From Blastococcus sp. (GTDB lineage: Bacteria; Actinomycetota; Actinomycetes; Mycobacteriales; Geodermatophilaceae): a DNA stretch of 64,000 nt. Shown piece by piece: positions 10,226 to 29,226 of the stretch. The position numbers were made by a program, and so were the translations under genes. The stretch lies in assembly GCA_025465355.1 (NCBI GenBank), contig JAODNN010000106.1, positions 1-64,000 of the forward strand. Direction: 5' to 3'. How positions within the stretch are numbered: position 1 is the stretch's first letter; every line of letters starts with the position of its first letter. The notes beneath the pieces were generated by a model. That model did no database searches and was not told the DNA's origin. It worked only from the letters and a program-made list of their open reading frames with translations.

Positions 10226-10226
10226 C

Positions 10227-11282
10227 TCAGCCGCGGCGCCTCCGGCGGCGCACCAGCAACGCGACCAGCACGACGGCGGCCGCGATCCCCGCCGCGGGAG
10301 CGGCGTAGCGGGCCATGGCCGCCCCTCCGGCCACCTCGAGGAGGTCGATCGGCTCCGGTTCGGCGACGACCCGGGGGCGGGACGGCGCACCGTCGGCGGA
10401 CGGAACGCTGCGCACCGGGGCGCCGGACGCCGGGCGGGTCGGCGGGGCGCTGGGTCCGCTCGGCGGACCACTCGGCGCCTTGGCCGCCGGGGCGGTGTCC
10501 TTGACGGCGGGGGCCGTCTTCGCGGGGGCGGCAGCGGCCTCGACGGGTGGCGGGACGATCGTCACCGGTGCCGTCGCGGGAGCCGCCTTGGCAGGAGCCG
10601 CCTTCGCGGCGGCGGTCTTGGCCGGAGCCTTCGCCGGCGCGGCCTTGGCCGGAGCGGCCTTGTCGGTCACCTTCTCCGTCGCGGCAGCCGTCTTCTTCGT
10701 CGCGGCCGCAGCCTTCTTCACGGTCCTGCCCGCGGCACTGTCCCCGGCTGACAGCTCCGCCGATGCGGCGATCTCCTCCACCGCGCCGGCCGCCGTCGCG
10801 GCGGCGCCCGCCGCCCGGTCCGCGCTCCCCTGGGCGTCACCCTGGCCGAGTTGTGCGGCGAGCTTGTCGGCGAACTGCCCGAGCAGCTTGTTGCCGACGT
10901 CGGTCATCACGCCCCGGCCGAACTGCGCGGGCCGGCCGGTGATGTTGAGGTCGGTGATCACGTGGACGCGGGTGATCGAGCCTTCCGGCGCCAGGTTGGC
11001 GGTGATCGTGGCGGCCGCTGTGCCGTTGCCCCGCTGGTCCTTGCCCCGGGCGTCGATGACCGCCTGGTGGGCGGCCGCGTCCTTCTCGACGAACGACGCC
11101 TTGCCCTGGTACGTCAGGTTGATCGGGCCCAGCTTGACCTTGACCCGGCCGGTGAACTCGTCGCCGGTCACGGAGTCGAGCACGGCGCCGGGCATGCAGG
11201 GCGCGATCCGTTCGATGTCGAGGAGCACCCGCCATGCCTCGTCGATGGGGACGGGCACTGTGAACGAGTTCTCCAGCTGCAC
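10227..11282 (-). CDS. coxG: CoxG-like SRPBCC protein with long Ala/Lys/Pro tail and C-terminal membrane anchor
   Basis: This 351-aa protein starts at GTG 11282, with an AGGAGG Shine-Dalgarno 5 nt upstream. Residues 1-150 are the CO dehydrogenase subunit G/SRPBCC domain (NSFTVPVPIDEAW; MPGAVLDSV; GKASFVEKDA). After that comes about 170 residues of low-complexity Ala/Lys/Pro/Thr with KAAPAK and KKAAAATKK units, resembling histone-like tails. The end is a single hydrophobic segment (AAPAAGIAAAVVLVALLV) followed by a run of Arg. It therefore looks tail-anchored, with the SRPBCC head tethered in the cytoplasm. In Oligotropha, CoxG helps recruit CO dehydrogenase to the membrane. It is the last gene of the coxS-L-M-G operon, 92 bp after coxM. 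Confidence 0.88.
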   Translation of the reverse strand: MQLENSFTVPVPIDEAWRVLLDIERIAPCMPGAVLDSVTGDEFTGRVKVKLGPINLTYQGKASFVEKDAAAHQAVIDARGKDQRGNGTAAATITANLAPEGSITRVHVITDLNITGRPAQFGRGVMTDVGNKLLGQFADKLAAQLGQGDAQGSADRAAGAAATAAGAVEEIAASAELSAGDSAAGRTVKKAAAATKKTAAATEKVTDKAAPAKAAPAKAPAKTAAAKAAPAKAAPATAPVTIVPPPVEAAAAPAKTAPAVKDTAPAAKAPSGPPSGPSAPPTRPASGAPVRSVPSADGAPSRPRVVAEPEPIDLLEVAGGAAMARYAAPAAGIAAAVVLVALLVRRRRRRG

Positions 11283-11374
11283 GACAACCTCCTGGAGGTG
11301 CGTCCCGGCCGGCCCGTCCTCCAGGGGAGGGGCCGACCGGGACGGACGAGTACGGACCGGGCGCCGGCTCGACG

Positions 11375-12229
11375 CTACAGCCCGGCAGCGGTGCTGACCG
11401 CGCGGCGCGTGAGCACCGTGACCAGGTGTCGACGGTAGTCGGCTTGGGCGTTGAGGTCGCTGCTCGGGTCGGTGCCCTCGGCGGCATGCGCCGCAGCGGC
11501 CGCCACCGCCTCGGCAGTCGCATCGACGCCGGCCAGGGCCTCCTCGACCGCCGTCGCCCGTAGCGGGGTCGGCCCCATGTTGGTCAGCCCGATCCGCGCC
11601 TCGGCGATCCGGCCGTCCTCGCGGCGGACCGCGGCGGCCACCGCCACGATCGACCACGCCTGGGCCACCCGGTTGAACTTCTCGTAGTGCATGCCCCAGC
11701 CCTCGCGCTTAGGGACGCGGATCTCGACGAGGATCTCCCCCTCCTCGAGCGCGGTCGTGAGGTAGTCGACGAAGAATTCGGCGGCGGGCACGGTGCGCCG
11801 TCCCCCGGGGCCGGCGACCACGAACTCGGCGTCGAGTGCCAGGGCCACCGCCGGCAGGTCACCGGCCGGGTCGGCGTGCGCGAGAGCACCGCCGAACGTG
11901 CCTCGGTGCCGCACCTGCCGGTCGGCCACCGTCTCGGTCGCCTCGGCGATGAGCGGGGCGTACCGCGCGATCAGCGGATCCGAGATGACATCGGAGTGCG
12001 TCGTCATCGCGCCGATGACGATCGCGCCGTCGTCCTCCCGGACGCCGCGGAGCTCGGCGACCCTGGTCAGGTCGACGACGGTCTCCGGGGCGGCCAGCCG
12101 CAGCCGCATGACCGGGATCAGCGACTGCCCGCCGGCCATGATCTTCACGTCCTCTCCGCCGGAGGCGACGGCTTGCAATGCCTCGTCCACCGTGGTCGGG
12201 CGGGCATAGGCGAACGCAGCGGGAATCAT
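11375..12229 (-). CDS. coxM: FAD-binding medium subunit of CO dehydrogenase-type molybdenum hydroxylase
   Basis: This 284-aa protein starts at ATG 12229, overlapping the coxL stop by 4 bp. It has the FAD-PCMH fold: N-terminal FAYARPTTVDEALQAV, the FAD pyrophosphate loop KIMAGGQSLIPVM, the second loop RHRGTFGGALAHADPAGDL, and the C-terminal CO-dehydrogenase flavoprotein domain (AQADYRRHLVTVLTRRAV). The subunit passes electrons from the 2Fe-2S centres to quinone or another acceptor. Length and motifs match CoxM/CutM of about 285-290 aa. Translation is coupled to coxL. Confidence 0.93.
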   Translation of the reverse strand: MIPAAFAYARPTTVDEALQAVASGGEDVKIMAGGQSLIPVMRLRLAAPETVVDLTRVAELRGVREDDGAIVIGAMTTHSDVISDPLIARYAPLIAEATETVADRQVRHRGTFGGALAHADPAGDLPAVALALDAEFVVAGPGGRRTVPAAEFFVDYLTTALEEGEILVEIRVPKREGWGMHYEKFNRVAQAWSIVAVAAAVRREDGRIAEARIGLTNMGPTPLRATAVEEALAGVDATAEAVAAAAAHAAEGTDPSSDLNAQADYRRHLVTVLTRRAVSTAAGL

Positions 12230-14724
12230 CGGTCCCCTCCCAGCGAGGAAGCGTCGGTGGACACGCCCGCGGTGGTCTCGGTCTGTGCCCCGCCGTAGGC
12301 AGTGGTGCCGGCGGTGGCGCGGTCCCCGCCGTCACCGCCCTCCTGAATGGCCCGCCAGACCCGTTCCGGCGTGAGCGGCATCCGGATGTCGGACACCCCC
12401 AGGTGCCGGACGGCGTCCAGTGCGGCGTTGACCACCGCCGGCGTGCTGGCGATGCAGCCCGCCTCGCCGACCCCCTTCGCGCCGATCGGGTTGCCCGGGG
12501 CCTCGTGCACCGTGTTGCCGGTGTCGAAGTGCGGCAGATCGGCCGCCGTCGGCACCAGGTAGTCGACGAAGCTGCCGGTGGTCAGGTTGCCGTCGGCGTC
12601 GTACACGGCCTCCTCGTACAGCGCCTGTGCGATGCCCTGCGCCACGCCGCCGTGGATCTGCCCCTCGACGATCAGCGGGTTGACGATCTTCCCGACGTCG
12701 TCGACGCAGGCGTACTTCCGGATCTTCACCATGCCGGTCTCGGTGTCGACGTCCATCGCGCAGATGTGCGTGCCGTGGGGGAAGGAGAAGTTCACCGGGT
12801 CGTAGGTGGCCTCCGCGTCGATCGAAGGCTCGATCCCCTCCGGATAGTCGTGCGCGGCGAAGGTCGCCAGGGCGATCTCCTGGATCGACACCCCGGTGCC
12901 CGGCGTCCCCCGCACCGAGAACGTGCCACCGGTGAAGTCCAGGTCGTCCTCGCTGGCTTCCAGCAGGTGCGCGGCGATCGTCCTGGCCTTGGCCACGACT
13001 TTCTCGGCCGCCTTGACCACGGCCACCCCGCCGACGACGAGCGAGCGGGAACCGTAGGTGTCCATGCCGCGCGAGGAGATCGCGGTGTCGCCGTGCAGCA
13101 CCTCGACGTCCTCGAACGGCACGCCCAGCTCGTCGGCGACGAGCTGGCTCCACGCCGTCTCGTGCCCCTGACCGTGCGGCGTGGATCCGGTGACCACCTC
13201 CACCTTGCCGGTGGGCAGCATCCGGATCGACGCCTGCTCCCAACCGCCCGCCCCGTAGGCGAGCGACCCCAGCACCCGGGAGGGCGCCAGGCCGCACATC
13301 TCGGTGAAGGTGGAGAAGCCGATGCCCAGCTGCACGGGGTCGTTGGACTCGCGGCGGCGCCGCTGCTCGGCGCGCAGCTCGTCGTAGCCGATCAGCTCGA
13401 GCGCCTGCTGGGTGGCGGCCTCGTAGTCGCCGCTGTCGTAGGCGAGCCCGGCGGCGGTGGTGAACGGGAACTCGGCGGCGTTGATCCAGTTCTTCCGGCG
13501 CAGCTCCAGCGGGTCCAGGTCGAGCTCGACGGCGAGCTCGTCCATGATCCGCTCGATGGCGAAGGTCGCCTCGGGACGGCCGGCGCCGCGGTAGGCGTCG
13601 GTGGGGGTCTTGGTGGTGAACACGCCGTCGCACTCGAACCGGTAGGCCGGGAACTTGTAGATCCCCACGAACATGAAGGCGCCCAGGATCGGGACCCCGG
13701 GGGTCACCAGCCGCAGGTAGGCGCCCATGTCGGCGAGGATGCGGCACCGCAGGCCCTTGACGTTGCCCTCCCGGTCGGCGGCGATGTCGATGTACTGGAT
13801 CTGGTCGCGGCCGTGGTGCGCGGTCATCAGCGACTCGCTGCGGGTCTCGGTCCACTTGACCGGCTTCCGGAGCCGACGGGCCACCAGAAGGCTGAGGATC
13901 TCCTCGGGGATGACGTTCAGCTTGCCGCCGAACCCGCCCCCGACGTCCGGGGCGATCACCCGCAGCTTGTGCTCCGGGATGCCGGTGACCATCGCCGCCA
14001 TCACCCGCAGGATATGCGGGATCTGCGTCGAGGACCACAGCGTGTAGTTGTCGCCCTGCGGCTGGACGACGACCGACCGCGGCTCCATGAACGACGGGAT
14101 CAACCGTTGCTGGACGAAGCGCCGGCTGACGACGACGTCGGCCTCGGCGAAGGCCTGATCGGTGTTGCCGGCCGCGCCCGCCTCGCCACCGTCGAACACG
14201 AAGTGGAAGCTGGTGTTCGACTCGAGGTGCGAGTGGACGAGCTCGGCGCCGTCCTTGATCGCCTCCTCCATGTCCAGGACGGGCGGAAGCTGGTCGTAGT
14301 CGACATCGACGAGTTCGACGGCGTCCTGCGCGGCGACCTTGCTGCGCGCGACGATGACGGCGACGGCCTCACCGACGTGGTTGACCTGGTCCACGGCGAT
14401 CGACGGGTGGCCAGGGTTGACCATGTCCGGCGTGACTGGCCAGGCGCAGGGCAACGAGCCCTGCTCCTCGGCGAAGTCGCGGCCGGTGTAGACCGCGACG
14501 ACGCCCTGCGACTGCTGGGCTGCGCTCACGTCGACGTTGGTGATCCGGGCGTGCGCGACCGGACTGCGGACGATCGCAAGGTGCAGCATCCCGGGCAGGA
14601 CCATGTTGTCGGTCCAGGTCGTCCTCCCGGTGATCAGCCGGGTGTCCTCCTTGCGCTTGCGCGGCTGTCCGACCTCCTTGGCCGGTGCGCCGGCGGTGAC
14701 GGTGGGTTCCTCGGTGACGGTCAT
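12226..14724 (-). CDS. coxL: Molybdopterin (large) subunit, form II CO dehydrogenase-type / xanthine dehydrogenase family
   Basis: This 832-aa protein starts at ATG 14724, overlapping the coxS stop by 4 bp. It has the aldehyde oxidase/xanthine dehydrogenase a/b hammerhead (about 25-150) and molybdopterin-binding domains. The active-site loop reads AYRGAGR at residues 377-383. True CO-oxidising form I enzymes have AYxCSFR with a Cys that binds Cu; the AYRGAGR loop defines form II. The catalytic Glu is present (KGVGEAGC, Glu754). The real substrate is therefore uncertain: it may be CO, an aldehyde or an N-heterocycle. A dense open frame on the opposite strand is an antisense shadow. Confidence 0.93.
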
Positions 14725-15224
14725 GCCTGCGCTCCCGTCGGCTCGGGTGCCGCGGTGCCCTGCATCTCGTGGGCGGCCTGCTGCACGGCCCGGACGATGT
14801 TCTGGTAGCCGGTGCACCGGCAGAGGTTGCCCTCGATGCCCTCGCGGACCTCGTCCTCGCTGGGATCGGGGTTGTCACCCACCAGGTCGATCGCGGCCAT
14901 GATCATCCCCGGGGTACAGAACCCGCACTGGAGGCCGTGCATCTCGTGGAAGGCCTTCTGCATCGGGTGCAGGGTGCCGTCGGAGGCGGCGATCCCCTCG
15001 ATCGTCGTCACCTCGCTGCCGTCGGCCTGGACCGCCAGCACGGTGCAGCTCTTCACCGCTTCGCCGTCCAGGTGCACGGTGCAGGCGCCGCAGTTGCTGG
15101 TGTCGCAGCCGACGACCGTGCCGATCTTCCCCAGCTGTTCGCGCAGGTAATGGACGAGAAGTGTCCGAGGTTCGACGTCGTCGCTGTAGGAAACCCCGTC
15201 GACCCGCACGCTGATCTGGCTCAC
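14721..15224 (-). CDS. coxS: 2Fe-2S small subunit of CO dehydrogenase-type molybdenum hydroxylase
   Basis: This 167-aa protein opens the operon from an ATG at 15224. The plant-type [2Fe-2S] site uses Cys40, Cys45, Cys48 and Cys60 (CDTSNCGAC...C). The all-helical second site uses Cys100, Cys103, Cys135 and Cys137 (CGFC...CRC). Length is standard for CoxS. The 227-bp gap upstream (15225-15451) must contain the operon promoter, but I find no convincing -35/-10. It does hold a GTGCAA-GG-TTGCAC palindrome at 15419-15432, with a further TTGCAC half-site at 15438-15443, close to the end of the upstream MFS gene. Confidence 0.94.
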
Positions 15225-15451
15225 AGGCCATCCGCCTCCTCGCTGTGGTCCCGGTCACGTTCCCGGGTACAGCCGGAGTCTCTCGCTGCCGCCGACAGTT
15301 AGGCCACGCTAAGCCGCGACCGGCTCGCGAGCTGCTCCGCAGATGCGGACTGATCATTCGGCCTGCGACCCGAAGGAGCGGAACGTGCTCGGTTACGGAC
15401 CTGTGCAGCTGCGGCCACGTGCAAGGTTGCACGCTGGTTGCACCTGCCTGG

Positions 15452-16711
15452 TCAGGCAGCCGGAACGCGTTCGAGTGCCGCCCGTTCCGCCGCGTGGCTC
15501 GCCGCGGCGGAGCGCTTCTCCCGGCTGCGCAGGACACCGGAGACCGCGAGGGGGCTGAGCCCCGCGACGGCGAGGCCCGCGCCGGCGACGGAGGGGGCCC
15601 GGTAGCCGAGGCCGGCGGTGATCACGAGTCCGCCGAGCCAGGCGCCGAGGGCATTGGCCAGGTTGAGCGCCGAGTGGTTGAGGGCGGCGCCCAGCATCTG
15701 TGCCTCCCCGGCGGTCTCCATCAGCCGGAGCTGCAGGCAGATGGCGAGCGCCGAGGCGACGAGCGACACCAGGAAGACGCCGGCCACGAGCGCCGGCGGC
15801 CATGGCGACGTCCACGCCACCAGTGCCAGCAGCACGCCGAGGATGCTCAGCGTGGCGACCAGGGAGCGGAAGAGCGCCAGGTCGGCCAGCCGGCCGCCGA
15901 GCGCCGTCCCGATCACGCCGCCGGCGCCGTAGGCGAGCAGCACCCCGGGGACCGCGCCGCGGGACAGCCCGGACACGTCCGTGACCAGCGGGGCGATGTA
16001 GCTGTACAGGGCGAACACGCCGCCGAACCCGACGATGCCGACCAGCAGGGTGAGGATCACCTGCGGGCGCCGGAGCGCGCCCAGCTCGCCGCGCACGGTG
16101 GCCTCGGGGCGCCCGGGGGAAGAGGGCACGACCGCGAGGACCGCGGTCACCGTGGCGGCGGCGAGGACGACGACCGTCCAATAGGCCGAGCGCCAGCCGA
16201 AGTGCTGCCCGAGCCAGGTGGCCACCGGGACGCCGGCCAGCATGGCGGCGGCCAACCCCAGGATCACCGAGCTGACCGCCCGGCCGCGCAGCCGGTCCGG
16301 CACGAGCGACGCGGCGACCAGGGACGCGACGCCGAAGTAGGCCCCGTGCGGGAGACCGGCGACGAAGCGGGCGATCAGCAAGGTGGCGTAACCGGGGGCG
16401 ACGGCACTGAGGCCGTTCCCGACGAGGAAGGCGGCCATCAGGCCGACCAGCAGCGCCCGCCGCGGCAGCCGCGCACCGAGCGCGGCGATGACCGGGGCAC
16501 CGACCACGACCCCGAGCGCGTAGACGGAGATGAGGTGGCCCGCCGTGGGGATGCTGACGCCCACGCCGGTCGCGATGTCGGGCAGCACGCCCATGGTCAC
16601 GAACTCGGTGGTGCCGATCGCGAAACCGCCCAGGGCCAGCGCGGCGATCGCGGTCACCAGGCGTCCGGTCGGCAACGGTCGATGGTCGGTGCTCGAGGGG
16701 GCGCTGCTCAC
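15452..16711 (-). CDS. MFS transporter, DHA1 family (AraJ/CmlR-like)
   Basis: This 419-aa membrane protein starts at GTG 16711. It has 12 predicted transmembrane helices in two six-helix halves, beginning ALALGGFAIGTTEFVTMGVLP, the signature of the AraJ/YdhP/chloramphenicol-efflux branch of DHA1. Loop 2-3 has the basic RLPRRALL motif. The likely role is proton-driven export of a drug or metabolite; the substrate is unknown. A perfect 11-bp-arm palindrome lies 51 bp upstream of the start. The cox operon follows downstream on the same strand, 227 bp away. Confidence 0.88.
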   Translation of the reverse strand: MSSAPSSTDHRPLPTGRLVTAIAALALGGFAIGTTEFVTMGVLPDIATGVGVSIPTAGHLISVYALGVVVGAPVIAALGARLPRRALLVGLMAAFLVGNGLSAVAPGYATLLIARFVAGLPHGAYFGVASLVAASLVPDRLRGRAVSSVILGLAAAMLAGVPVATWLGQHFGWRSAYWTVVVLAAATVTAVLAVVPSSPGRPEATVRGELGALRRPQVILTLLVGIVGFGGVFALYSYIAPLVTDVSGLSRGAVPGVLLAYGAGGVIGTALGGRLADLALFRSLVATLSILGVLLALVAWTSPWPPALVAGVFLVSLVASALAICLQLRLMETAGEAQMLGAALNHSALNLANALGAWLGGLVITAGLGYRAPSVAGAGLAVAGLSPLAVSGVLRSREKRSAAASHAAERAALERVPAA

Positions 16712-16833: not shown

Positions 16834-18168
16834 TCAGCGGGCGCGCGTGGATCGCCGCAGCCGCAGTACGTGCGCGGCCGCCGCGGCGCGGCGCGGCGAG
16901 GAGGGGGGCAGCCAGTCCAGGCAGGCCTGCCAGACGGCGACGTCGTCCCGGGCCTCGGGCAGCTGGGCGTAGCGCAGCAGCAGCTCGGGACGGCGGCTGC
17001 GCAGCACCGCCTGGCGCAGCAACGCCGACACGCGCTCACGGGCCACGACGACACCGGGCGCGCGGGAGCCGGGCAGGACGGCGCCGGGATAGCAGTCGAG
17101 CGCCGTGCCGACCGATCCGCGGGCGAGCTGCCGGCGGACCCGGTCCAGGTCCGTGTCGATCGGCGTGACCAGCCGGTAGGGCCGCGACCCGACGAGGTCG
17201 GCCCCCACGAGGTGCCGCAGCCGGGACAGCTCGGCGCGGACGGTCACCGAGGCGGCGTCGCCGCGATGGCATTCCGCGGCCAGCTGCGCGGCGGTGCGGC
17301 CCGTGCCCGCGACGGACGCCTCGGCGAGCAGCAGCAAGAGCTCCGAGTGCCGCAGCGACAGCTCGATCGGACCGGCCGGGAGCGTGAGGCGGGCGCGCTC
17401 ACGGCCGAGGACGTCGAGTCGCGGCGCGACCCGTGGTGCCGGCGGTGGGCGGCGTCCCCCGGGCTCGCGCTGCTGGTCCCGGTGCTGCCACCGCAGCTCC
17501 GCCTCGACCGCCGCCACCGTGGCGCGGACGAGGGTGAGCACATGGGGGCCGGCCACGTGGTCACCACCGGTGACGTCGATGGCACCGATCAGCCGGCCGG
17601 TCATCGGGTCGTGCACCGGTGCCGCCGAGCAGCTCCACGGCTGGACCGGGCGCCGGTAGTGCTCACTGCCGTAGATCTGGACCGCGTGGTCGACGGCGAG
17701 CGCGGTGCCCGGCGCATTGGTGCCGGCGACGTCCTCCGCCCACCGCGCGCCCTCGACGAAGTTCATGCCGGCCGCCCGGGACCGCAGCCGGGAATCGCCC
17801 TCCACCCACAGCATCCGACCGCCGGCGTCGGTGACCGCGACGATCATCTGGTCGGCCTCGGCGTCCTCGACCAGCAGCCGGCGGATGACCGGCATCACGG
17901 TGGCCAGCGGATGAGCCGCGCGGTAGGCGAGCAGGTCGGCGTCCATCAGGTCGACCGGGGGAAGGCTCCCGTCCGGGTCGACCCCGCTGCCCAGCGATCG
18001 CCGCCAGGAATCCCAGACCACGGAGCGGACCGAGGCGTCGACCGGCTGCTGGCTCCGGGTGACGAGGCGCTCGTGCGCAGCCCGCAGCCGCCGGGTCAGC
18101 GCCGGGCTCGGCCCGCCCCCCGGAAGCGCCAGCCATGGGTTCACGACCCGCGGCACGGGGTGCTCCAC
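16834..18168 (-). CDS. GAF-domain transcriptional regulator with C-terminal DNA-binding domain
   Basis: This 444-aa protein starts at GTG 18168. The N-terminal part (about 40-230) resembles the sensor module of AcoR-type activators: WDSWRRSL near residue 52, a GAF-type middle (MIVAVTDAGGRMLWVEGD; MNFVEGARWAEDVAGTNAPG) and CSAAPVHDPMTGRLIGAIDVTG. The C-terminal part (about 270-350) has a helix-turn-helix region (ELSLRHSELLLLLAEAS; VRAELSRLRHLVG) rather than a sigma54 AAA+ domain. In actinobacteria such proteins often accompany alcohol or aldehyde dehydrogenase genes. It lies just downstream of mftF, so control of the mycofactocin-dependent dehydrogenase is plausible but inferred. Confidence 0.8.
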   Translation of the reverse strand: MEHPVPRVVNPWLALPGGGPSPALTRRLRAAHERLVTRSQQPVDASVRSVVWDSWRRSLGSGVDPDGSLPPVDLMDADLLAYRAAHPLATVMPVIRRLLVEDAEADQMIVAVTDAGGRMLWVEGDSRLRSRAAGMNFVEGARWAEDVAGTNAPGTALAVDHAVQIYGSEHYRRPVQPWSCSAAPVHDPMTGRLIGAIDVTGGDHVAGPHVLTLVRATVAAVEAELRWQHRDQQREPGGRRPPPAPRVAPRLDVLGRERARLTLPAGPIELSLRHSELLLLLAEASVAGTGRTAAQLAAECHRGDAASVTVRAELSRLRHLVGADLVGSRPYRLVTPIDTDLDRVRRQLARGSVGTALDCYPGAVLPGSRAPGVVVARERVSALLRQAVLRSRRPELLLRYAQLPEARDDVAVWQACLDWLPPSSPRRAAAAAHVLRLRRSTRAR

Positions 18169-21901: not shown

Positions 21902-22191
21902 TCGGGGGCCTCCGGACGGCGTTCGATCATCTGGGAACGGGCGAGATCGGCCAGCGCCCTGACGTACGTGCGGTGCTGCCCCTCGGGCACGCCGCAGGCG
22001 GCGATCGCGGCCAGGGCGGTGGGATGCTCGGCGAGCGTCTCGACGACAGCGACCAGTTGCTTCGACTTCAGGAACGACAGCTTGCGGTTGCCGAAGTGGT
22101 AGACCAGCGCGCCGAACGGCTCGGGGCGCAGGGCGACCGAGCGGGCCCGCCGCCAGGGCAGGGTGGCGTCGAAGTCCGCCGTCGTCGTCAC
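21898..22191 (-). CDS. mftB: Mycofactocin RiPP recognition element protein MftB
   Basis: This 97-aa protein starts at GTG 22191, with no obvious Shine-Dalgarno but only 26 bp after the mftA stop. It has the PqqD-like RRE features of MftB: a beta-hairpin strand VALRPEPFGALVYHFGNRKLSFL, then helices with LVAVVETLAEHP and a C-terminal RTYVRALADLARSQMIERR. MftB binds the MftA leader and presents it to MftC. Overlap with mftC (ATGA) couples their translation. Confidence 0.92.
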   Translation of the reverse strand: MTTTADFDATLPWRRARSVALRPEPFGALVYHFGNRKLSFLKSKQLVAVVETLAEHPTALAAIAACGVPEGQHRTYVRALADLARSQMIERRPEAPE

Positions 22192-22217: not shown

Positions 22218-22337
22218 TCAGTAGACGCCGCACATGCCGTCGATCGAGACCTCTTCGACCAGCGACTCCTCGACGAGGGGCTCCTCGGCGGCGGCCACCT
22301 CGAGCACGGGGGCGTCGGTCTGGGGCGTCTCGGGCAT
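22218..22337 (-). CDS. mftA: Mycofactocin precursor peptide MftA
   Basis: This 39-aa peptide starts at ATG 22337, preceded by a GGAGG Shine-Dalgarno at 5 nt. The C-terminus is IDGMCGVY, the invariant MftA core whose last Val-Tyr becomes mycofactocin. The leader is acidic and rich in Glu/Val (EEPLVEESLVEEV), as usual. It is first in the mftA-B-C unit, with a recognisable promoter at 22382-22410 and the divergent mftR beyond. It is very short and easily missed by automatic annotation. Confidence 0.96.
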   Translation of the reverse strand: MPETPQTDAPVLEVAAAEEPLVEESLVEEVSIDGMCGVY

Positions 22338-22381: not shown

Positions 22382-22410
22382 ACGTTAGTGACACCGAGTG
22401 CCAGTGGCAA
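22382..22410 (-). promoter_or_regulatory. mftA promoter with a palindromic probable MftR operator in the spacer
   Basis: On the minus strand, TTGCCA (22410-22405) and TAACGT (22387-22382) are separated by exactly 17 bp. The spacer contains the near-palindrome TGACAC-CGA-GTGCCA (plus-strand 22389-22403, one mismatch). An overlapping perfect repeat TGCCA-G-TGGCA extends into the -35. It is located between divergent mftA and mftR, so repression by MftR is the simple reading. The binding protein is inferred from position. Confidence 0.65.
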
Positions 22411-22468: not shown

Positions 22469-23068
22469 ATGTCGGCCGTGACCGAGGCCGCCTCCGATCC
22501 GCGCGCAGACACCCGCGCCCGCGTCGAGCACGCCGCCCTCGACCTGTTCACCGTCAAGAGCTTCGAGCAGGTGATCATCGACGACGTCGCGGCGGCGGCC
22601 GGGATCAGCCGGCGGACGTTCTTCCGCTGTTTCGCCACCAAGGCCGACGCCGTCTGGGGTGACTTCGCGGCCCACGTGACCCGGCTCGAGCGTCTGCTGG
22701 CGGCCACCGACCCGGCCCAGCCGGTGCTGGCCTCGGTCTGCGCGGCATACGTCGAGGTCAACGACTACTCCGAGGCCGAGCTGCCGCTGTTGCAGCAGCG
22801 GATGCGGCTGATCCTCACCGAGCCGGCGCTGCTGGCCCACTCGCAGCTGCGCTACGCCGACGTCGACCGGGTCGTGGCCGAGCACGTGGCCCGGCGGACC
22901 GGCACCGCCCCCGGCGACCTCGTGCCGCGGCTGGTTGCGGTCAGCAGCCGGGCGGCGGCGACGACGGCCTTCGAGCTCTGGCTCGCCGACGAGCGGACCC
23001 CGCTCGGTCAGCGGCTCCGGGAGGCGTTCGCCCAGCTCACCGCCGGATTCCCGGCCCTCGCTCGCTGA
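22469..23068 (+). CDS. mftR: Mycofactocin-system TetR-family regulator MftR
   Basis: This 199-aa protein is read from ATG 22469; a GTG three codons later is possible. The N-terminal TetR helix-turn-helix is clear: TRARVEHAALDLFTVKSFEQV and IIDDVAAAAGISRRTFFRCFATKAD. The C-terminal ligand domain is about 130 aa. It is divergently transcribed from mftA, the usual position of MftR. Mycobacterial MftR represses the mft operon and responds to long-chain acyl-CoA. The stop is 10 bp before the convergent monooxygenase stop. Confidence 0.92.
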   Translation: MSAVTEAASDPRADTRARVEHAALDLFTVKSFEQVIIDDVAAAAGISRRTFFRCFATKADAVWGDFAAHVTRLERLLAATDPAQPVLASVCAAYVEVNDYSEAELPLLQQRMRLILTEPALLAHSQLRYADVDRVVAEHVARRTGTAPGDLVPRLVAVSSRAAATTAFELWLADERTPLGQRLREAFAQLTAGFPALAR

Positions 23069-23078
23069 TCCTGAGCGG

Positions 23079-24539
23079 TCAGCGCCGGGCGGACCGCACG
23101 ATCCGGTCCGGCCGGACGACGACGGCCGACGCGTGGCCGTGCCGCAGCCACCGCGCCAGAGTTCCGCCCGGGTCCTCGATCGACGTCTCCGCCCCGTCGG
23201 CGCCACGGACCACGAACCCCGCACCGGCCACCCGTAGTTCAGCGCTCCCCTCGCCCAGCACGTCGTCCAGCCGGAGACGCCGTCCGTCGGCCAGCACCTG
23301 CGGCTGCGGGACGAGCGTCCCGGCCAGGCGCCGGCCGGCCCGTCCACCCCGCTCCACCAGCGGGCCGGAGCGCAGCGGCGGCGTCCGGCTCCGGGTCGCG
23401 AGAGCCGCGACCGCCGGGATCCGCCGGGCGGCGGCCAGCACACCCCGGCGGACGACGGCGCCGCCTCGCCCGCCTCCGGTCATCAGCCGGCCCAGCAACC
23501 GCGCCACCCTGATGAGCGCGCGGGCGTGCGGCTCACGCTCGGCCTGGTAGCTGTCCAGCAGCCCGTCGTCGGCGTCCCCGGCCAGGACGGCGGCCAGCTT
23601 CCACGCCAGCTGGTGCACGTCCCGCAGCCCGAGGCCGAGCCCCTGACCGACGAAGGGCGGTGTCAGGTGCGCGGCATCGCCGGCGAGGAAGACCCGCCCC
23701 ACGCGCCAGGAACCGGCCACGGCGGCGCGGAACGTGTACTCCGCGGCCCGCACGATCGTCAGTCCGGCCACGTCGACCGGCGCCAGCAGGGCAGCCAGCC
23801 GCTCGGGCGCGACCAGCTGGTCGACCGTCTCCCCCGCCGCGAGACGGAACTCCCAGCGGTACCGGTCGCCGGTGATCTGCAGGAAGGTGGCGGCGCGGCG
23901 TGGATCGCACACCTGGTGCACCCCGCCCCACATGGGCAGCGGCGCCGCCGACCGCACGTCGAGGACCAGCCACCGGTCGGGCGGGCCCAGCTCGCGCAAT
24001 GAGGTTCCGATCAGCTCGCGCACCGTGCTGTTCGCGCCGTCGCATCCCAGCACGGCGCGCGCGCGGACGGACCGCTCCGTCCCGAGGCCCCGGTCGAGGA
24101 CGGTGAGCGTGACGCCGTCGCCGTCGCCGTCCTGGGCCAGGTCGCGCACCTCGGTGCCGCGGACGACGGTCACGCCCGGCGTGCCCTGTACCGCTTCGGC
24201 CAGCACGCCCTCGAGGTCCGGCTGGTGCAGCAGCGCGCCCTCGGGCCAGCCGTTCGCCCCCACCCCCGGGCGCCGCCCGAAGTCGGCCAGCACCCCGTGC
24301 GCTCCGTCGAGCAGCCGGAGGCCGGCCATCGGGCGGCTGATCGCCTCGACCTGGTCCGCCACGCCGGCGGCCTGGAGCACGCGGAACACCTCGTCGTCCA
24401 GGTGCACCGCACGGGGCAGGGCATAAGCGCCGCGGTGCCGCTCGAGGACGAGCACCTCGAGACCGCGGCGAGCGAGCAGGAGCGCCGCCGTCAGCCCCAC
24501 CGGCCCGGCGCCGACCACGACGACCGGGGCGCCTGACAT
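23079..24539 (-). CDS. FAD-dependent aromatic-ring-type monooxygenase (PheA/MhpA/TetX-like)
   Basis: This 486-aa protein starts at ATG 24539. Class A flavoprotein hydroxylase features are clear: N-terminal GAGPVGLTAALLLARRG (ADP-binding), the DG motif in VLGCDGANSTVRELIG, and the GD motif VFLAGDAAHLTPPFVGQGLG. The C-terminal thioredoxin-like region is shortened (GAGFVVRGADG). These enzymes use NAD(P)H and O2 to hydroxylate phenols or oxidise polyketides. No ring-cleavage genes are nearby, so the substrate is unknown. It is divergent from the alcohol dehydrogenase gene. Confidence 0.88.
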   Translation of the reverse strand: MSGAPVVVVGAGPVGLTAALLLARRGLEVLVLERHRGAYALPRAVHLDDEVFRVLQAAGVADQVEAISRPMAGLRLLDGAHGVLADFGRRPGVGANGWPEGALLHQPDLEGVLAEAVQGTPGVTVVRGTEVRDLAQDGDGDGVTLTVLDRGLGTERSVRARAVLGCDGANSTVRELIGTSLRELGPPDRWLVLDVRSAAPLPMWGGVHQVCDPRRAATFLQITGDRYRWEFRLAAGETVDQLVAPERLAALLAPVDVAGLTIVRAAEYTFRAAVAGSWRVGRVFLAGDAAHLTPPFVGQGLGLGLRDVHQLAWKLAAVLAGDADDGLLDSYQAEREPHARALIRVARLLGRLMTGGGRGGAVVRRGVLAAARRIPAVAALATRSRTPPLRSGPLVERGGRAGRRLAGTLVPQPQVLADGRRLRLDDVLGEGSAELRVAGAGFVVRGADGAETSIEDPGGTLARWLRHGHASAVVVRPDRIVRSARR

Positions 24540-24602
24540 GGCGCCAGTCTCGCCCAGCGCTGCAGGAACGTTGCACTCCCTCGGTGTAATGGGCGGTCAG
24601 CC

Positions 24603-24631
24603 TTGACGGGTCCCCAGCCGCTACCCAAGGT
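24603..24631 (+). promoter_or_regulatory. Weak candidate promoter for the NDMA-dependent alcohol dehydrogenase
   Basis: TTGACG (24603-24608), a 17-bp spacer and CAAGGT (24626-24631) lie 77 bp upstream of the GTG at 24708. The -35 is good; the -10 matches only two key positions. It is the best candidate in the 168-bp divergent region. Confidence 0.3.
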
Positions 24632-24707
24632 GAGACCTGGAGCACACCGCCGGACGGACGTGCCCGCAATCCCCGCCGGCATCGGCGGGCCACCAGGAGG
24701 AATCTCT

Positions 24708-25835
24708 GTGAACACCAAGGGCGCGATTCTGTGGGGCGTGGGCGAGCAGTGGTCGGTCGAGGAGATCGAGGTCGGCGACCCGCAGCAGGGTGAGGTCACG
24801 GTCGAGCTGGCCGCCTCGGGCCTGTGCCACTCCGACGAGCACCTGGTCACCGGCGGCACACCGGTCGGGTTCCCGGCCCTCGGTGGGCACGAGGGTTCGG
24901 GTGTCGTCACCAAGGTCGGCCCCGGCGTCGCGGGGCTGCAGGAGGGCGACCACGTCGTCACCGCCTTCATCCCGGCCTGCGGCCAGTGCCCGCCGTGCGC
25001 CAAGGGGATGCAGAACCTCTGCGACCTGGGCGCCCACCTGCTGGGTGGCGTCGCGATCTCCGACGGCACCCACCGCGTCACCGCGAAGGGACAAGGCGTG
25101 TCGCCGATGTGCCTGCTCGGCACGTTCTCGCCCTACATCACGGTGCATCAGGCCTCGGTCGTGAAGATCGAGCCGAGCGTGCCGCTGGCGGTTGCGGCCC
25201 TGGTGGGCTGTGGGGTGACCACCGGCTGGGGGTCGGCGGTCAAGGTGGCCTCGGTCCGGCCGGGGGAGACGGTGGTGGTCATGGGCGTCGGCGGCGTCGG
25301 CATGAACGCGGTCCAGGGGGCGGTCGCGGCCGGCGCCCGTCACGTCGTCGTCGTCGAGCCGGTCCCACACAAGCGCGACTGGGCCAAGACCTACGGAGCG
25401 ACGCATTCCTTCGCCACCGCGGAGGAGGCGATGGGCGCCGTCAACGAGCTGACCTGGGGCCGGATGGCGGACAAGACGATCATCACGGTCGGCGACATCC
25501 AGGGCGAGGACATCCAGGTCGCGCTGAGCCTCACCGGCAAGGGCGGCCGGGTCGTGGTGACCGGGATGGGCAACTACGCCAACCTCGACGTCACGCTCAG
25601 CCTGTTCGAGCTGACCCTGCTGCAGAAGGATCTGCAGGGCGCCATCTTCGGCGGGCTGAGCCCCCGCGCCGCCATTCCGGAGCTGCTGGCGCTCTACCAG
25701 GCCGGCCAGCTCAAGCTCGACGAGCTGGTGACCACGAAGTACGCCCTCGAGGACATCAATCAGGGCTACCAGGACATGCGCGACGGCAAGAACATCCGCG
25801 GGATGATCGTCTACACCGACGCCGACCGGCGCTGA
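24708..25835 (+). CDS. NDMA-dependent (mycofactocin-associated) zinc alcohol dehydrogenase
   Basis: This 375-aa protein starts at GTG 24708, with AGGAGG 7 nt upstream. Medium-chain Zn alcohol dehydrogenase features are complete: catalytic Zn ligands Cys40 (GLCHSDEH) and His61 (GGHEGSG), structural Zn Cys91, Cys94, Cys97 and Cys105 (CGQCPPCAKGMQNLC), and a Rossmann loop MGVGGVGMNAVQGA. The ILWGVGEQWSVEEIEVGDPQ opening and the long GDIQGEDIQVALSL insert resemble the NDMA-dependent family, whose NAD stays bound and is re-oxidised through mycofactocin. Position beside the mft genes supports this. The substrate is probably a primary alcohol. Confidence 0.92.
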   Translation: MNTKGAILWGVGEQWSVEEIEVGDPQQGEVTVELAASGLCHSDEHLVTGGTPVGFPALGGHEGSGVVTKVGPGVAGLQEGDHVVTAFIPACGQCPPCAKGMQNLCDLGAHLLGGVAISDGTHRVTAKGQGVSPMCLLGTFSPYITVHQASVVKIEPSVPLAVAALVGCGVTTGWGSAVKVASVRPGETVVVMGVGGVGMNAVQGAVAAGARHVVVVEPVPHKRDWAKTYGATHSFATAEEAMGAVNELTWGRMADKTIITVGDIQGEDIQVALSLTGKGGRVVVTGMGNYANLDVTLSLFELTLLQKDLQGAIFGGLSPRAAIPELLALYQAGQLKLDELVTTKYALEDINQGYQDMRDGKNIRGMIVYTDADRR

Positions 25836-25847
25836 CACCCTGCTCCC

Positions 25848-25912
25848 AGTTGATCATCGGCATATGGCTGCACGACACGCCGACCTGGGCAGCCGTTCGC
25901 CGATGATCAACT
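25848..25912. terminator. Two-part long stem-loop between convergent genes
   Basis: The outer arms AGTTGATCATCGGC (25848-25861) and GCCGATGATCAACT (25899-25912) are perfect 14-bp complements. Inside, a symmetric 4+4-nt bulge (ATAT/GTTC) is followed by a 6-bp stem GGCTGC/GCAGCC with a 17-nt loop. It lies 12 bp after the alcohol dehydrogenase stop and 14 bp before the XdhC stop, so it can end transcription on both strands. The outer arm shares GATGATCA-N-CT with the palindrome at 16762-16784. Confidence 0.75.
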
Positions 25913-25926
25913 CAGGGCGGCGACCC

Positions 25927-27048
25927 TCAGCGCTCGGCGGTGCGGTGGATGGGGCCGTCGGTCCCGGCGAGCCGCTCTCCTGACCCGCCCCAGCGGCCCG
26001 CGATGATCTCGGCGGCGATGGAGACCGCGGTCTCCTCGGGGGTCCGCGCGCCCAGGTCGAGCCCGATCGGCGAGGAGAGCCGCGCGATCTCCTCCTTCGT
26101 CAGCCCCGCGTCGGCCAGCCGGGCCAGCCGCTCCTCGTGCGTGCGCCTCGAACCCATCGCGCCCACGTAGGCGACCGGGATACGCAGGGCGAGCTCCAGC
26201 AGCGGGACGTCGAACTTCGGGTCGTGGGTGAGCACGCAGAGCACCGTTCGCTCGTCGATCCGGCCGGCGTCCACCTCCGCCTGCAGGTAGCGGTGCGGCC
26301 AGTCGACGATCACCTCGTGCGCGTCGGGGAACCTCTTTGGCGTCGCGAACACCGGACGGGCGTCGCAGACCGTCACCCGGTAGCCGAGGAACGCGCCCAC
26401 CCGGGCCACGGCGGCGGCGAAGTCGATCGCCCCGAACACCACCATCCGCGCGGGCGGCGCGAACGAGTTGACGAACAGGCCCAGGTCGTCGCCGCGGCGC
26501 TCGCCGTCGTGGCCGAAGTGCAGCATCGCCGTCCGGCCGGCGGCCAGCATGCCGCGGGCGTCGTCCGCGACGGCGTCGTCCAGGCGCTGCAGCCCGAGCG
26601 ATCCCGACACCCGGTCGGGCCAGATCACCAGCCGGCGGCCCAGCCGGTCGTCGGGCCCCTGCACGCAGGTGACGACGGCGACCGGCTCGTGCCGGCCCAC
26701 CGACTCGGCGATCTCGCCCAGCTCGGGGAACGACTCTCGGGACACGGTCTCGACGAACACGTCGAGGATCCCGCCGCAGGTCAGGCCGACGGCGAAGGCG
26801 TCGTCGTCACTGACGCCGTAGCGCTCGAGGGTCGGCTGCCCCGTCTCGACGACGTCCTTCGCCTCCTCGTAGACCGCGCCCTCGACGCAGCCGCCGGAGA
26901 CGCTGCCCACCGCGGTCCCGTCCGGGCCTACCAGCATCGATGCGCCGGCCGGACGGGGCGCCGAGCGCCAGGTCGCCACCACGGTGCCCATGCCGACGGT
27001 CTCCCCCGCCTGCCACCAGCCGATGAGATCCTCGAGAACGTCACGCAT
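25927..27048 (-). CDS. XdhC/CoxI-family molybdenum hydroxylase maturation protein
   Basis: This 373-aa protein starts at ATG 27048, with AAGGAA upstream. The XdhC N-terminal domain has MGTVVATWRSAPRPAGASM and the conserved Cys in VSGGCVEGAVYEEA. The C-terminal Rossmann domain has RMVVFGAIDFAAAVARVGAFLG and TVCDARP. The domain order is that of CoxI/CoxF-like proteins, which insert sulfurated Mo cofactor into XDH/CO dehydrogenase-family enzymes. It is third in a minus-strand unit after the MoxR ATPase and VWA genes (59 bp from the latter). The obvious client is the coxSLM enzyme about 11 kb away. Confidence 0.9.
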   Translation of the reverse strand: MRDVLEDLIGWWQAGETVGMGTVVATWRSAPRPAGASMLVGPDGTAVGSVSGGCVEGAVYEEAKDVVETGQPTLERYGVSDDDAFAVGLTCGGILDVFVETVSRESFPELGEIAESVGRHEPVAVVTCVQGPDDRLGRRLVIWPDRVSGSLGLQRLDDAVADDARGMLAAGRTAMLHFGHDGERRGDDLGLFVNSFAPPARMVVFGAIDFAAAVARVGAFLGYRVTVCDARPVFATPKRFPDAHEVIVDWPHRYLQAEVDAGRIDERTVLCVLTHDPKFDVPLLELALRIPVAYVGAMGSRRTHEERLARLADAGLTKEEIARLSSPIGLDLGARTPEETAVSIAAEIIAGRWGGSGERLAGTDGPIHRTAER

Positions 27049-27107
27049 CGCTGGGTTCCTTCCGTCCGGCGGTTCCGGCGGCCCTCTGCAGGGGGGCAGG
27101 GGGTCCT

Positions 27108-28304
27108 TCACGCACGCTGGATCACTCCCGACAGTTCCTCGAACGCCGCCATGCTGTGTCCGGAGACGAAGTGGTCGATCGACGGCAACGCCGCCTGCAT
27201 CCCACCGGTCAGCGGCTCGTAACCGGCCCGGCCCTTGTGCGGATTCACCCAGACGACGGAGTGGGCCAGCCGCCGCAGCCGCGTCATCTGCTCGGCGAGC
27301 AGCTCCGTGCCGCCTCGTTCCCAGCCGTCGCTGCAGACCACGACCACGGCGCCGCGCGCCGTCCCGCGCTGCCCCCAACGGTCGAGGAAGGCCTTGAGCA
27401 CCTCGCCGAGCCGGGTGCCGCCGGACCAGTCGGGGATCGCCGATCCGCTGGCGATCAATGCGGCGTCCGGGTCGCGCAGCCGCAGCTGCGGCGTCACCCG
27501 CGTCAGCCGCGTTCCGATCGTGAACACCTCCGTGGAGGCCGGGCGCGCCCGGACGGCGGCGTGCGCGAACCGCAGCAGCGCGTCGGCGTAGGGCGTCATC
27601 GAGCCGGAGACGTCGATCAGCAGGACCACGCCGCGCGGCCGGGGCGCCCGACGACGGTGCAGCAGCCGGGTCACCTCGCCGCCGTCCCGCAACGCGCGCC
27701 GGACCGTCCGGGCCGGATGGACGGCGCCCAGCGCGCTCGGCCGGCGACGCCGGGAAGGCCGCATCGGGGCGGCGGGCACCAGGAGGGTGAACAGTCGCCG
27801 GAGGTGCTCGCGCTCGGCCGCGGTCAGGCCGGCCACGTCGCGGTGCCGGAGCACCTCGTCCGCGCTGGCGCGGGTGGCCAGCTCCTCGGTCTCCGCGTCG
27901 GCCTCGGACTCTCCAGAACCCCCGTCCAGCGGCGCGGAGACCGCCAGCTGCGGCGGCACGGACGCCGTCGGCCGGGCCGCCCGGGGCGCCTCGCCGGCGA
28001 AGTAGGCAGCGAATGCCGCGTCGTAGCGGACGAGATCGTCCGGGTCACCGCAGAGCGTGAGCCGGCCTGCCCAGTACACGGCGGTCGGGTTCAGCACGTC
28101 GAGCGCCCCGAGCGCGGCGAGCATCGCCTCGACGCGGTCCGGCGAGGCGGGCACTCCGGCGTGCCGGAGTGTCCGGGCGAAGCCCAGCACCGTGTCGACG
28201 ACGTCCCGGTTCCGCGGTGCTTTGACGGCCCTGTCCAGAGGCTCGCCGCGAGCGTGCGAGCGGGGAGGAGGACAGGGTCCTTCCAGGGGTCCTCTTTCAG
28301 CCAC
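27108..28304 (-). CDS. coxE: VWA-domain protein, CoxE family
   Basis: This 398-aa protein starts at GTG 28304, which overlaps the MoxR stop by 8 bp. After an N-terminal helical half (about 30-200) comes a von Willebrand A domain with an intact MIDAS start: GVVLLIDVSGSMTPYADALL, then SGGTRLGEVLKAFLD and VVVCSDGWERGG. CoxE works with the CoxD MoxR ATPase to mature the Mo active site in CO dehydrogenase. Coupling with the ATPase gene supports that role. Confidence 0.9.
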   Translation of the reverse strand: MAERGPLEGPCPPPRSHARGEPLDRAVKAPRNRDVVDTVLGFARTLRHAGVPASPDRVEAMLAALGALDVLNPTAVYWAGRLTLCGDPDDLVRYDAAFAAYFAGEAPRAARPTASVPPQLAVSAPLDGGSGESEADAETEELATRASADEVLRHRDVAGLTAAEREHLRRLFTLLVPAAPMRPSRRRRPSALGAVHPARTVRRALRDGGEVTRLLHRRRAPRPRGVVLLIDVSGSMTPYADALLRFAHAAVRARPASTEVFTIGTRLTRVTPQLRLRDPDAALIASGSAIPDWSGGTRLGEVLKAFLDRWGQRGTARGAVVVVCSDGWERGGTELLAEQMTRLRRLAHSVVWVNPHKGRAGYEPLTGGMQAALPSIDHFVSGHSMAAFEELSGVIQRA

Positions 28305-29226
28305 CGAAGAGCGCCCCCCGGGCCAGTGCCTGGACGCGGTCGGTGTCCTCCCGGTACTTCAGGACGGCGCCCAGAGTGCGGGCCGCGAGATCCGGATCGA
28401 GGTCGCGGGCACCGAGCGTGTGCAGGGCGGTGGCCCAGTCCATCGACTCGGCGATGCCGGGGGGCTTGAGCAGGTCCAGCGTGCGGAGGGTGGCAGTGGC
28501 GCGGGCGACCTCGCGGGCCAGTTGCTCGGTCACCTGCGGCAGCCGACGGCGCAGGATCGCCACCTCGCGGTCGAAGTCGGGGTGCTGCAGCCAGTGGTAG
28601 AGGCACCGGCGCTTGAGCGCGTCGTGCACCTCCCGTGTCCGGTTGGAGGTGAGGACGACGAGGGGCGGCGTCTTCGCGTGCACGGTGCCGAGCTCGGGGA
28701 TCGAGATCGTGAAGTCGGAGAGGACCTCGAGCAGGAACGCCTCGAACTCGTCGTCCGCCCGGTCGATCTCGTCGACCAGGAGCACGCTCGGGGAGTCCTC
28801 CAGGGCCTGCAGCAGGGGGCGGGCAAGAAGGAAGCGCCGGTCGTAGAGAGAGGCCTCCAGCGACGCGGTGTCGTCGGTGGCGTGCGCCGCCTCGGCGGCC
28901 CGCAGGTGCAGCAGCTGACGGCCGAAGTCCCAGTCGTAGAGGGCCTGGCTGGCCTCCAGACCCTCGTAGCACTGCAACCGGTAGAGCGGCCGGCCGGTGA
29001 TCTCGGCCAGGGCCTGCGCCAGCGCCGTCTTCCCGACGCCCGCCTCGCCCTCGAGGAACAGCGGGCGGTGCATGACCAGCGCGAGATAGGCGGCGGTCGC
29101 CAGGCCCTCGTCGGGGAGGTAGCCGGTGGCCTCGAGCGCGGCCGCCAGCTCGCCGGGGCTGCCGAATCCGGGTTCCCCCTCCGGGTTCGGCGCAGCGGCG
29201 ATCGGGTGCACGGTGGGCTCGCTCAC
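28297..29226 (-). CDS. coxD: MoxR-type AAA+ ATPase, CoxD-like
   Basis: The protein is 309 aa from GTG 29226. An in-frame ATG at 29238 is possible, but the purine-rich GGTGGG stretch abuts it, so the GTG is better spaced. Walker A is GEAGVGKTALAQAL, Walker B LLVDEIDRADDEFEAF, sensor 1 VVLTSNRTREVHDALKRRC. This is the MoxR subgroup that includes CoxD, shown in Oligotropha to assist insertion of S and Cu into the Mo site. The enzyme here is form II, so Cu insertion is not expected. First gene of the maturation unit. Confidence 0.92.
   Translation of the reverse strand: MSEPTVHPIAAAPNPEGEPGFGSPGELAAALEATGYLPDEGLATAAYLALVMHRPLFLEGEAGVGKTALAQALAEITGRPLYRLQCYEGLEASQALYDWDFGRQLLHLRAAEAAHATDDTASLEASLYDRRFLLARPLLQALEDSPSVLLVDEIDRADDEFEAFLLEVLSDFTISIPELGTVHAKTPPLVVLTSNRTREVHDALKRRCLYHWLQHPDFDREVAILRRRLPQVTEQLAREVARATATLRTLDLLKPPGIAESMDWATALHTLGARDLDPDLAARTLGAVLKYREDTDRVQALARGALFGG

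Follow-up and report, generated by a model that had tools for sequence, protein, structure and literature searches.

In a passage of a 2026 survey (PMC13240472) the activity of the form II 'carbon monoxide (CO) dehydrogenases' is termed unresolved, and part of another paper (PMC6794299) takes recent work to suggest that CO is not their physiological substrate. With regard to mycofactocin, Geodermatophilus obscurus already appears, with one TIGR03989 protein, in the table of linked oxidoreductases of PMC3023750, in the main text of which 'molybd' and 'carbon monoxide' have no occurrence. The mycobacterial operator of the regulator MftR is given, in the relevant section of PMC8728441, as the core T-N2-GGCA-N5-TGCC-N2-A, with the M. 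tuberculosis site at -78 to -52. Here we describe a 64,000-nucleotide stretch of DNA from Blastococcus sp. (contig JAODNN010000106.1, positions 1 to 64,000; the window), a member of the Geodermatophilaceae, in which a form II cox cluster is parted by a block that carries mycofactocin (mft) genes. The window lies on contig C191 (81,782 bases) of a draft genome of 4.9 Mb in 195 contigs. We consider it somewhat probable that the arrangement is an inherited mosaic of two regulons, in which a GAF-domain protein would control the cox genes together with a gene for an FAD-binding monooxygenase (FMO) and perhaps one for an alcohol dehydrogenase (ADH). The strongest evidence on regulation connects the GAF gene with cox and FMO (and, by position, with the divergent ADH gene); it does not tie cox to mycofactocin synthesis.

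The gene content and order are those described in the first-pass annotation, with coxG, coxM, coxL and coxS at 10227-15224 and xdhC, VWA and moxR at 25927-29226, both groups on the minus strand. Read in the order of transcription, this strand carries moxR, VWA/coxE and xdhC, then FMO, then mftA, mftB, mftC, mftE, mftF, GAF, MFS, coxS, coxL, coxM and coxG, and from mftA to coxG all genes point the same way with gaps of no more than 249 bases (with the unshifted mftA start). Not every gene of the block is on the minus strand: ADH (24702-25835) and mftR (22469-23068) are both on the plus strand, with ADH divergent from FMO. The first-pass annotation had counted two dehydrogenase-type genes in the block. 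This holds for ADH but the other gene (23079-24539, minus strand) encodes the MhpA-like FMO, which exceeds the NF004829 cut-off (541 against 390) and matches PF01494.

Evidence for a regulatory connection came with a rare palindrome, TGCAACGTTGCA, that lies approximately 200 bp before coxS (14721-15224, minus strand; the [2Fe-2S] subunit, with PF01799 and PF00111) and recurs between FMO and ADH. The copy upstream of coxS has one mismatch (TGCAAGGTTGCA in plus-strand reading), occupies 15420-15431, 196-207 bp from the gene, and is the candidate site for the GAF regulator; the copy between FMO and ADH has two mismatches and is found at 24564-24575 (TGCAACGTTCCT on the minus strand). A search of 1.78 Mb from 72 loci of the family with at most one mismatch returned 11 matches, nine at coxS, one at FMO, one at ADH and none elsewhere, and 14 permuted palindromes used as a control gave 33 matches with only one at the six promoter classes. 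With up to two mismatches the same loci yielded 15 matches at coxS, seven at FMO, one at ADH, one at MFS and eight elsewhere. In 17 loci from outside the family there was no match with up to one mismatch and there were six with up to two, all of them elsewhere than the promoters. Genome-wide, 14 places were found in seven chosen genomes (seven at coxS, one at FMO, one at ADH and five elsewhere), of which only those away from coxS are unbiased because most of these genomes had been chosen for already showing the coxS site.

The site also tracks the GAF gene. With up to two mismatches it was present before coxS in 16 of 18 family loci that have the GAF gene and in none of the six that lack it (Fisher 2e-4), in a count from which duplicates, shorter stretches replaced by longer ones and L040 had been dropped (14 names) and which left out G031 and nine non-family rows with neither GAF nor site. 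Upstream of FMO the half-site TGCAACG was seen in 16 of the 22 loci that have GAF and in none of the seven that lack it (p 0.001), and 60 permuted heptamers gave at most six. This second count omitted 22 of 53 FMO loci in which the GAF slot fell outside the DNA examined, as well as L040 (whose DNA appears to end before the GAF place of its relative G100) and G031 (slot not in view).

The GAF gene itself (16834-18168, minus strand; PF01590) encodes a protein modelled with a DhaR-like GAF domain, an AfsR-like winged helix and a helical tail, and among ranks 1-6 of its Foldseek matches the best were 4lrx, 8hvr and 8k60, which are DhaR and AfsR structures. We infer the binding of this protein to the motif, as well as the direction of control: acting as a sensor with a winged-helix domain, it would most likely control coxS, coxL, coxM and coxG from TGCAACGTTGCA approximately 200 bp upstream of coxS, and FMO from a related site, perhaps together with ADH where the two share one intergenic region. 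A literature search found no description of this kind of GAF regulator with a TGCAACGTTGCA site.

Several observations weigh against this interpretation. A reversed control pattern was found at nine places in the seven genomes, against 14 for TGCAACGTTGCA, and because the control is about as frequent genome-wide it is only the position of the matches that is telling. The missing coxS site of one genome, G016, is confounded with a relocation of cox (see below), and without that genome the site is found in 0 of 5 loci lacking GAF (p 6e-4). The full palindrome at FMO did not separate the loci (4 of 23 with GAF and 0 of 8 without at up to two mismatches, p 0.55) and the half-site test was chosen after this failure. 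The Fisher values ignore relatedness, and as few as two to four losses may account for the loci without GAF. Furthermore, the weak copy of the palindrome core before moxR (GCAACGTTCC at 29282-29291) is not conserved in relatives; the only perfect copy of TGCAACGTTGCA in the source genome is on another contig, among LacI-type and PhyH-type reading frames; other conserved blocks also lie upstream of coxS; and the mean predicted local distance difference test (pLDDT) score of the GAF model is 67, with the N-terminal half poorly predicted. The 14-base palindrome was not carried upstream of MFS, GAF or mftF at up to three mismatches. A different, 16-base palindrome, CTGGCAGGCCTGCCAG, was observed upstream of the MFS transporter gene (15452-16711, minus strand; PF07690) in 15 of 29 loci at up to three mismatches and at none of five other promoters tested; its copy in the window is at 16918-16933, inside the GAF gene.

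The mycofactocin genes form what appears to be a separate module. MftB, MftC, MftE and MftF all score above their cut-offs and are accompanied by a short MftA with a conserved C-terminus, which identifies a mycofactocin system. All five genes are on the minus strand: mftA, the precursor peptide (22218-22337), mftB, the chaperone (21898-22191, predicted start; TIGR03967 111 against 33), mftC, the radical SAM maturase (20687-21901; TIGR03962 651 against 265), mftE, the peptidase (19742-20437; TIGR03964 336 against 172), and mftF, the glycosyltransferase (18294-19703; TIGR03965 501 against 280). MftA ends in IDGMCGVY, which we take to be the canonical ending, and the ATG at 22337 is preferred because the DNA of several relatives starts likewise. 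The block lacks mftD, which is on contig C77 of the same genome (23437-24591; TIGR03966, 720 against 471 bits). The Zn-type ADH exceeds the TIGR03989 cut-off (581 against 440 bits) and would by this model belong to the mycofactocin-dependent N,N-dimethyl-4-nitrosoaniline (NDMA)-type family; an ADH over this cut-off was found in five of five hand-picked genomes with mft and in none of five without. The TetR-type regulator encoded between mftA and FMO has the MftR C-terminal domain (PF17754, 120 against 22.7), and an operator lies before mftA, which together identify the regulator as MftR.

This operator, a palindrome of the form AGTGRCACnnnGTGYCACT between mftR and mftA that fits the mycobacterial core, lies with one mismatch at 22387-22405, 50-68 bp upstream of mftA. 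At up to three mismatches the copy at 22387 is the only one in the window, and 58 of 63 family loci (L004-L066) have at least one copy at up to two mismatches. The chance expectation in the window is 0.8, and the identity of the operator therefore rests on position and conservation and not on rarity. Genome-wide, the only exact copy of the 17-base operator core lies 28 bases before the relocated mftD match. Four further places differ from the core by one mismatch; one of these is before mftA, and the other three are at about the control level of three. No copy was found in the window at cox, GAF, FMO/ADH or moxR at up to three mismatches, and since the operator is confined to mftA there and to the relocated mftD elsewhere, no sharing of MftR by mft and cox is visible, and on this ground the idea that cox has an MftR operator in common with mft was rejected. 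The suggestion that the operons of the region could be regulated together thus survives in part, in that TGCAACGTTGCA is common to the coxS promoter and the FMO/ADH intergenic region and its presence follows that of the GAF gene, but the suggestion fails for MftR.

Some variation in the mft genes was observed among relatives. The mftD gene and its operator together span C77:23393-24591 (approximately 9394-10592 of locus L127), and in G005 mftD is likewise unlinked, in a neighbourhood with similar-looking reading frames and with no operator at up to two mismatches. Two or three over-cut-off copies of mftC are present in G001 (C1:261597 and C1:1864256), G105 (two contigs) and G086 (three contigs); mftB and mftD adjoin the second copy of G001, but the 20 kb read to each side of it gave no match to mftE or mftF. 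In Blastococcus mobilis the cluster-linked ADH is present as two overlapping pieces (G004:C59:27851-28944 and approximately 4.4-5.6 kb of L006) and is for this reason probably frameshifted; a further over-cut-off TIGR03989 ADH is on C61.

The first-pass annotation had named conservation of the order in relatives as a test of a functional link. In a survey of 112 genomes of the Geodermatophilaceae (here the family), in which coxL orthologues were counted at 74% identity or more, coxL was found in 101, mftC in 102, xdhC in 105 and all three in 94. Four genomes have coxL without mftC, five have mftC without a coxL orthologue and six have neither; among the last, G090, G093 and G099 are 95-99% complete. 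Four genomes with only a far weaker CoxL match (G010, G074 and G097 at 42-46%, and G073 by E-value) were counted as lacking the orthologue. With all three genes on one contig, 64 of 70 genomes show the order xdhC, mftC, coxL on one strand. In the remaining six, which all belong to genus g2, coxL adjoins xdhC and mft is 25-34 kb away (two of the six mapped). One of them, G016, keeps a further, partial match to coxG at the MFS gene next to mft, which suggests that cox has moved back to xdhC. A loss of cox in some Blastococcus loci had been considered and was rejected, as in the genomes mapped cox had only moved.

The order is thus conserved, yet this discriminates little. As a control for background synteny, the 100-120 kb around the same place was compared in six genomes of six other genera (G042, G100, G107, G075, G037 and G108), and 29 to 43 of 48 genes or reading frames tested from the window, tldD, an amidohydrolase gene, moaA and moaE among them, were found in nearly the same order; three frames matched nowhere and some gaps are ends of the fetched DNA. 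Because most of the window is syntenic across genera, conservation of the cox-mft order says little about function, and conserved order as proof of coupling was rejected after this control. The case illustrates how, where the chromosome of a family is stable, conservation of gene order can be misleading.

In G009 (a single contig) and G111, mftC and an over-cut-off TIGR03989 ADH are absent, and moxR, VWA, xdhC, FMO, GAF, MFS and coxS, coxL and coxM remain in the old order, with an mftE match also kept in G009. By this pattern of natural losses ADH belongs with mft, and FMO, GAF and MFS belong with cox. The retention of cox without mft in these two genomes, together with the five of 112 that have mftC without a coxL orthologue, makes the two systems separable, and the molybdenum enzyme is independent of mycofactocin. 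In G006 (C15:18259-39951; L096 and L097) the mft genes that lie between xdhC and GAF were seen to be divergent (mftC 75%, mftE 53% and mftF 44% identical), with an mftC that groups with Nocardioides at 99/90, as if the native mft cluster had been replaced in place. One further locus, L021 (SPQJ01000002.1), is titled 'Bacillus sp. AZ43' (UNVERIFIED_ORG) and is by these genes one of the Geodermatophilaceae.

That structural and maturation genes would normally be close together, as the first-pass annotation assumed, is borne out by six of ten non-family form II clusters read, in which moxR, VWA, xdhC, coxS, coxL, coxM and coxG are contiguous (in G226 moxR is approximately 2 kb from VWA). In G180 xdhC is on the opposite side of moxR, and in G244, G289 and G304, chosen because mft lies beside cox, no xdhC was found in the DNA read. 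Among 298 genomes of the order, family members included, coxL orthologues were found in 147 and mftC in 159. Both markers occur in 44 non-family genomes, eight of which have no listed mftC position; in the other 36, which have both positions listed, the markers are on one contig in 15 (within 50 kb in three and further apart in 12) and on different contigs in 21. The three within 50 kb are G244, G289 and G304 (L131-L137), where mftF precedes coxS on the same strand; the aligned ends are 0.28, 0.43 and 1.1 kb apart, and neither GAF nor MFS was matched in the interval. By mftC these genomes group with named Pseudonocardia. The coxL tree has long branches, with 12 of 28 inner branches open, and the mftF tree is a quick-search tree; the Pseudonocardia-like linkage of mftF and coxS may be one event, shared with or separate from that in the family. 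In these three genomes moaA was observed 8-14 kb beyond coxG.

The catalytic subunit CoxL (coxL at 12226-14724, minus strand, with 4-base overlaps with coxM and coxS) carries the active-site motif AYRGAGR and not the form I motif AYxCSFR. The motif was found in all 27 orthologue rows examined (26 genomes, at least 64% identity), and a second copy in G180, with AYACSFR, served as a positive control for the form I motif. CoxL falls short of the cut-off of TIGR02416, the form I CO dehydrogenase model (717 against 991 bits), and the glyceraldehyde dehydrogenase models NF041018/19/20 are likewise missed (718 against 790, 288 against 350 and 244 against 290); the motif and the S-L-M order of subunits place the enzyme in form II. 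An in-frame TGA in some CoxL matches was considered and dismissed, the one case checked (G180) being the terminal stop. Among solved structures the nearest to CoxL is the CO dehydrogenase large chain 8uem (695 bits), and others include quinoline 2-oxidoreductase (504 bits) and 6-hydroxypseudooxynicotine dehydrogenase (484 bits), and judged by these relatives an aldehyde or heteroaromatic substrate would fit. The remaining cox genes, all on the minus strand, are coxM for the FAD subunit (11375-12229; PF00941 and PF03450, with glyceraldDH_beta as the nearest NCBIfam model, 288 below a cut-off of 350) and a coxG-like gene (10227-11282, predicted start; PF06240, 59 bits against 22.2), the product of which has a long C-terminal tail ending in a hydrophobic membrane-type stretch. 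The maturation genes, on the same strand, encode an xdhC/coxI-type factor (25927-27048, predicted start; PF02625 and PF13478, NF045664 205 below 350), a VWA/CoxE protein (27108-28304; PF05762), the gene of which overlaps moxR by 8 bases, and a MoxR-type AAA ATPase (28297-29226, predicted start; PF07728, NF047784 270 below 475). To the right of moxR, at 35717-42341 of the window and 6-13 kb from the maturation genes, are moaA, moaE, a mobA-like gene, modC, modB, modA and a TOBE regulator gene; these molybdenum cofactor and molybdate genes keep the same place in other genera wherever the fetched DNA extended that far. G090, G093 and G099 (L111, L112 and L113), without a form II coxL orthologue and mftC, have xdhC, VWA and moxR (75-86%) adjoining a different molybdenum hydroxylase of M-S-L order, with a large subunit of approximately 35% identity that matched neither AYRGAGR nor AYxCSFR.

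Other explanations of the locus have to be set against this evidence. The ADH could oxidise an alcohol with mycofactocin as acceptor and the form II hydroxylase could take the resulting aldehyde to the acid, the genes being kept together by one pathway. Membership of the ADH in the mycofactocin partner family TIGR03989 is in agreement with this, as are the top NCBIfam matches of all three cox subunits, which are to glyceraldehyde dehydrogenase (by a narrow difference for CoxL, 718 bits against 717 for CO dehydrogenase), the rare palindrome common to the FMO/ADH intergenic region and coxS, and the position of mftF 0.3, 0.4 and 1.1 kb upstream of coxS in the three Pseudonocardia-like genomes. 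However, cox is retained where mft and ADH are gone, mftC is found without a coxL orthologue in five of 112 genomes, linkage within the family is no better than background synteny, six genomes have cox beside xdhC with mft elsewhere, and only three of 36 non-family genomes have the markers within 50 kb. Such a route is possible where both modules exist, but we regard it as unlikely to account for the locus. The functional link between mycofactocin and the molybdenum hydroxylase proposed in the first-pass annotation accordingly draws support from the palindrome shared by coxS and FMO/ADH, and is weakened by the separability of the systems in natural losses and the lack of the MftR operator at cox. 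A more specific version, in which the GAF/AfsR-like regulator responds to a signal derived from an alcohol or aldehyde and activates both ADH (with the divergent FMO) and the form II hydroxylase as a second, aldehyde-oxidising step, seems to us rather improbable. If it were true, the mft insertion would mark a two-cofactor oxidation pathway of mycofactocin plus molybdopterin, and a physiological substrate would be in hand for the family's form II 'CO dehydrogenases'.

Another possibility is a route for an aromatic or N-heteroaromatic substrate, in which the MFS transporter would import the compound, the GAF protein would sense it and the molybdenum enzyme and FMO would act on it in turn, with mycofactocin an unrelated neighbour. 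In favour of this, the loss of mft and ADH leaves FMO, GAF, MFS and cox together, FMO belongs to the 3-(3-hydroxyphenyl)propionate hydroxylase type and its upstream DNA has the half-site found before coxS, and quinoline 2-oxidoreductase and 6-hydroxypseudooxynicotine dehydrogenase are among the solved relatives of CoxL. Against this, no ring-cleavage gene was recognised among the neighbours scanned, where an amidohydrolase and an alpha/beta hydrolase downstream are annotated only generically, FMO was not seen near the non-family cox clusters read, and among solved structures CoxL is closest by sequence to CO dehydrogenase; this account is in our judgement also unlikely. Chance entry of the block on a single occasion, its order then kept by a stable chromosome with no shared regulation or metabolism, would explain the synteny of most of the window in six genomes of six other genera and the fact that mft has left or been replaced while cox stayed. 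It would not lead one to expect the association of palindrome and GAF gene at two promoters, nor the mftF-coxS neighbourhood in Pseudonocardia-like genomes, and we hold it to be doubtful.

The mosaic of two regulons favoured above would have arisen when a canonical form II cluster (moxR-VWA-xdhC with coxSLM-G) was split by a two-module block, probably early in the Geodermatophilaceae. One module would be mycofactocin, comprising mftA-C, mftE, mftF, mftR and the TIGR03989 ADH and controlled by MftR through the operator upstream of mftA, mftD having been relocated; the other, which would go with cox, would comprise the GAF regulator, the MFS transporter and FMO. The regulator, whose predicted sites lie both at the cox promoter and at another oxidoreductase locus, provides a handle on the form II substrate question, and natural strains that have lost the mycofactocin half provide a further one.

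Of the described systems, DhaR for the GAF part and AfsR for the DNA-binding part are by Foldseek the nearest to the modelled GAF regulator, which differs from DhaR, the regulator of the dihydroxyacetone kinase operon, in failing the model NF008485 (56 against 551). Literature searches found nothing joining mycofactocin with molybdenum hydroxylase, aldehyde oxidase, Geodermatophilaceae or Blastococcus, nor with aldehyde and MoxR clusters, GAF domain and ADH, or dehydrogenase synteny in Actinobacteria; for mycofactocin with carbon monoxide dehydrogenase, two papers matched, PMC8728441, which has the latter phrase in its reference list only, and PMC7105596. The operator resembles that of mycobacterial MftR in its GGCA-N5-TGYC core palindrome 50-68 bp before mftA, and differs in that another copy precedes mftD, which is relocated and unlinked. 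Form II 'CO dehydrogenase' clusters share with this one the S-L-M order, AYRGAGR, coxG and the three maturation genes, whereas here a block of mft, ADH, FMO, GAF and MFS, absent from the seven ordinary non-family clusters read, parts the structural from the maturation genes. In the mycofactocin clusters with a TIGR03989 nicotinoprotein ADH, as described in sections of Haft (2011; PMC3023750), mftA, mftB, mftC, mftE, mftF, mftR and a nearby TIGR03989 ADH are found as they are here; in contrast to those described there, the mft genes of this locus are embedded in a molybdenum hydroxylase cluster and mftD is unlinked.

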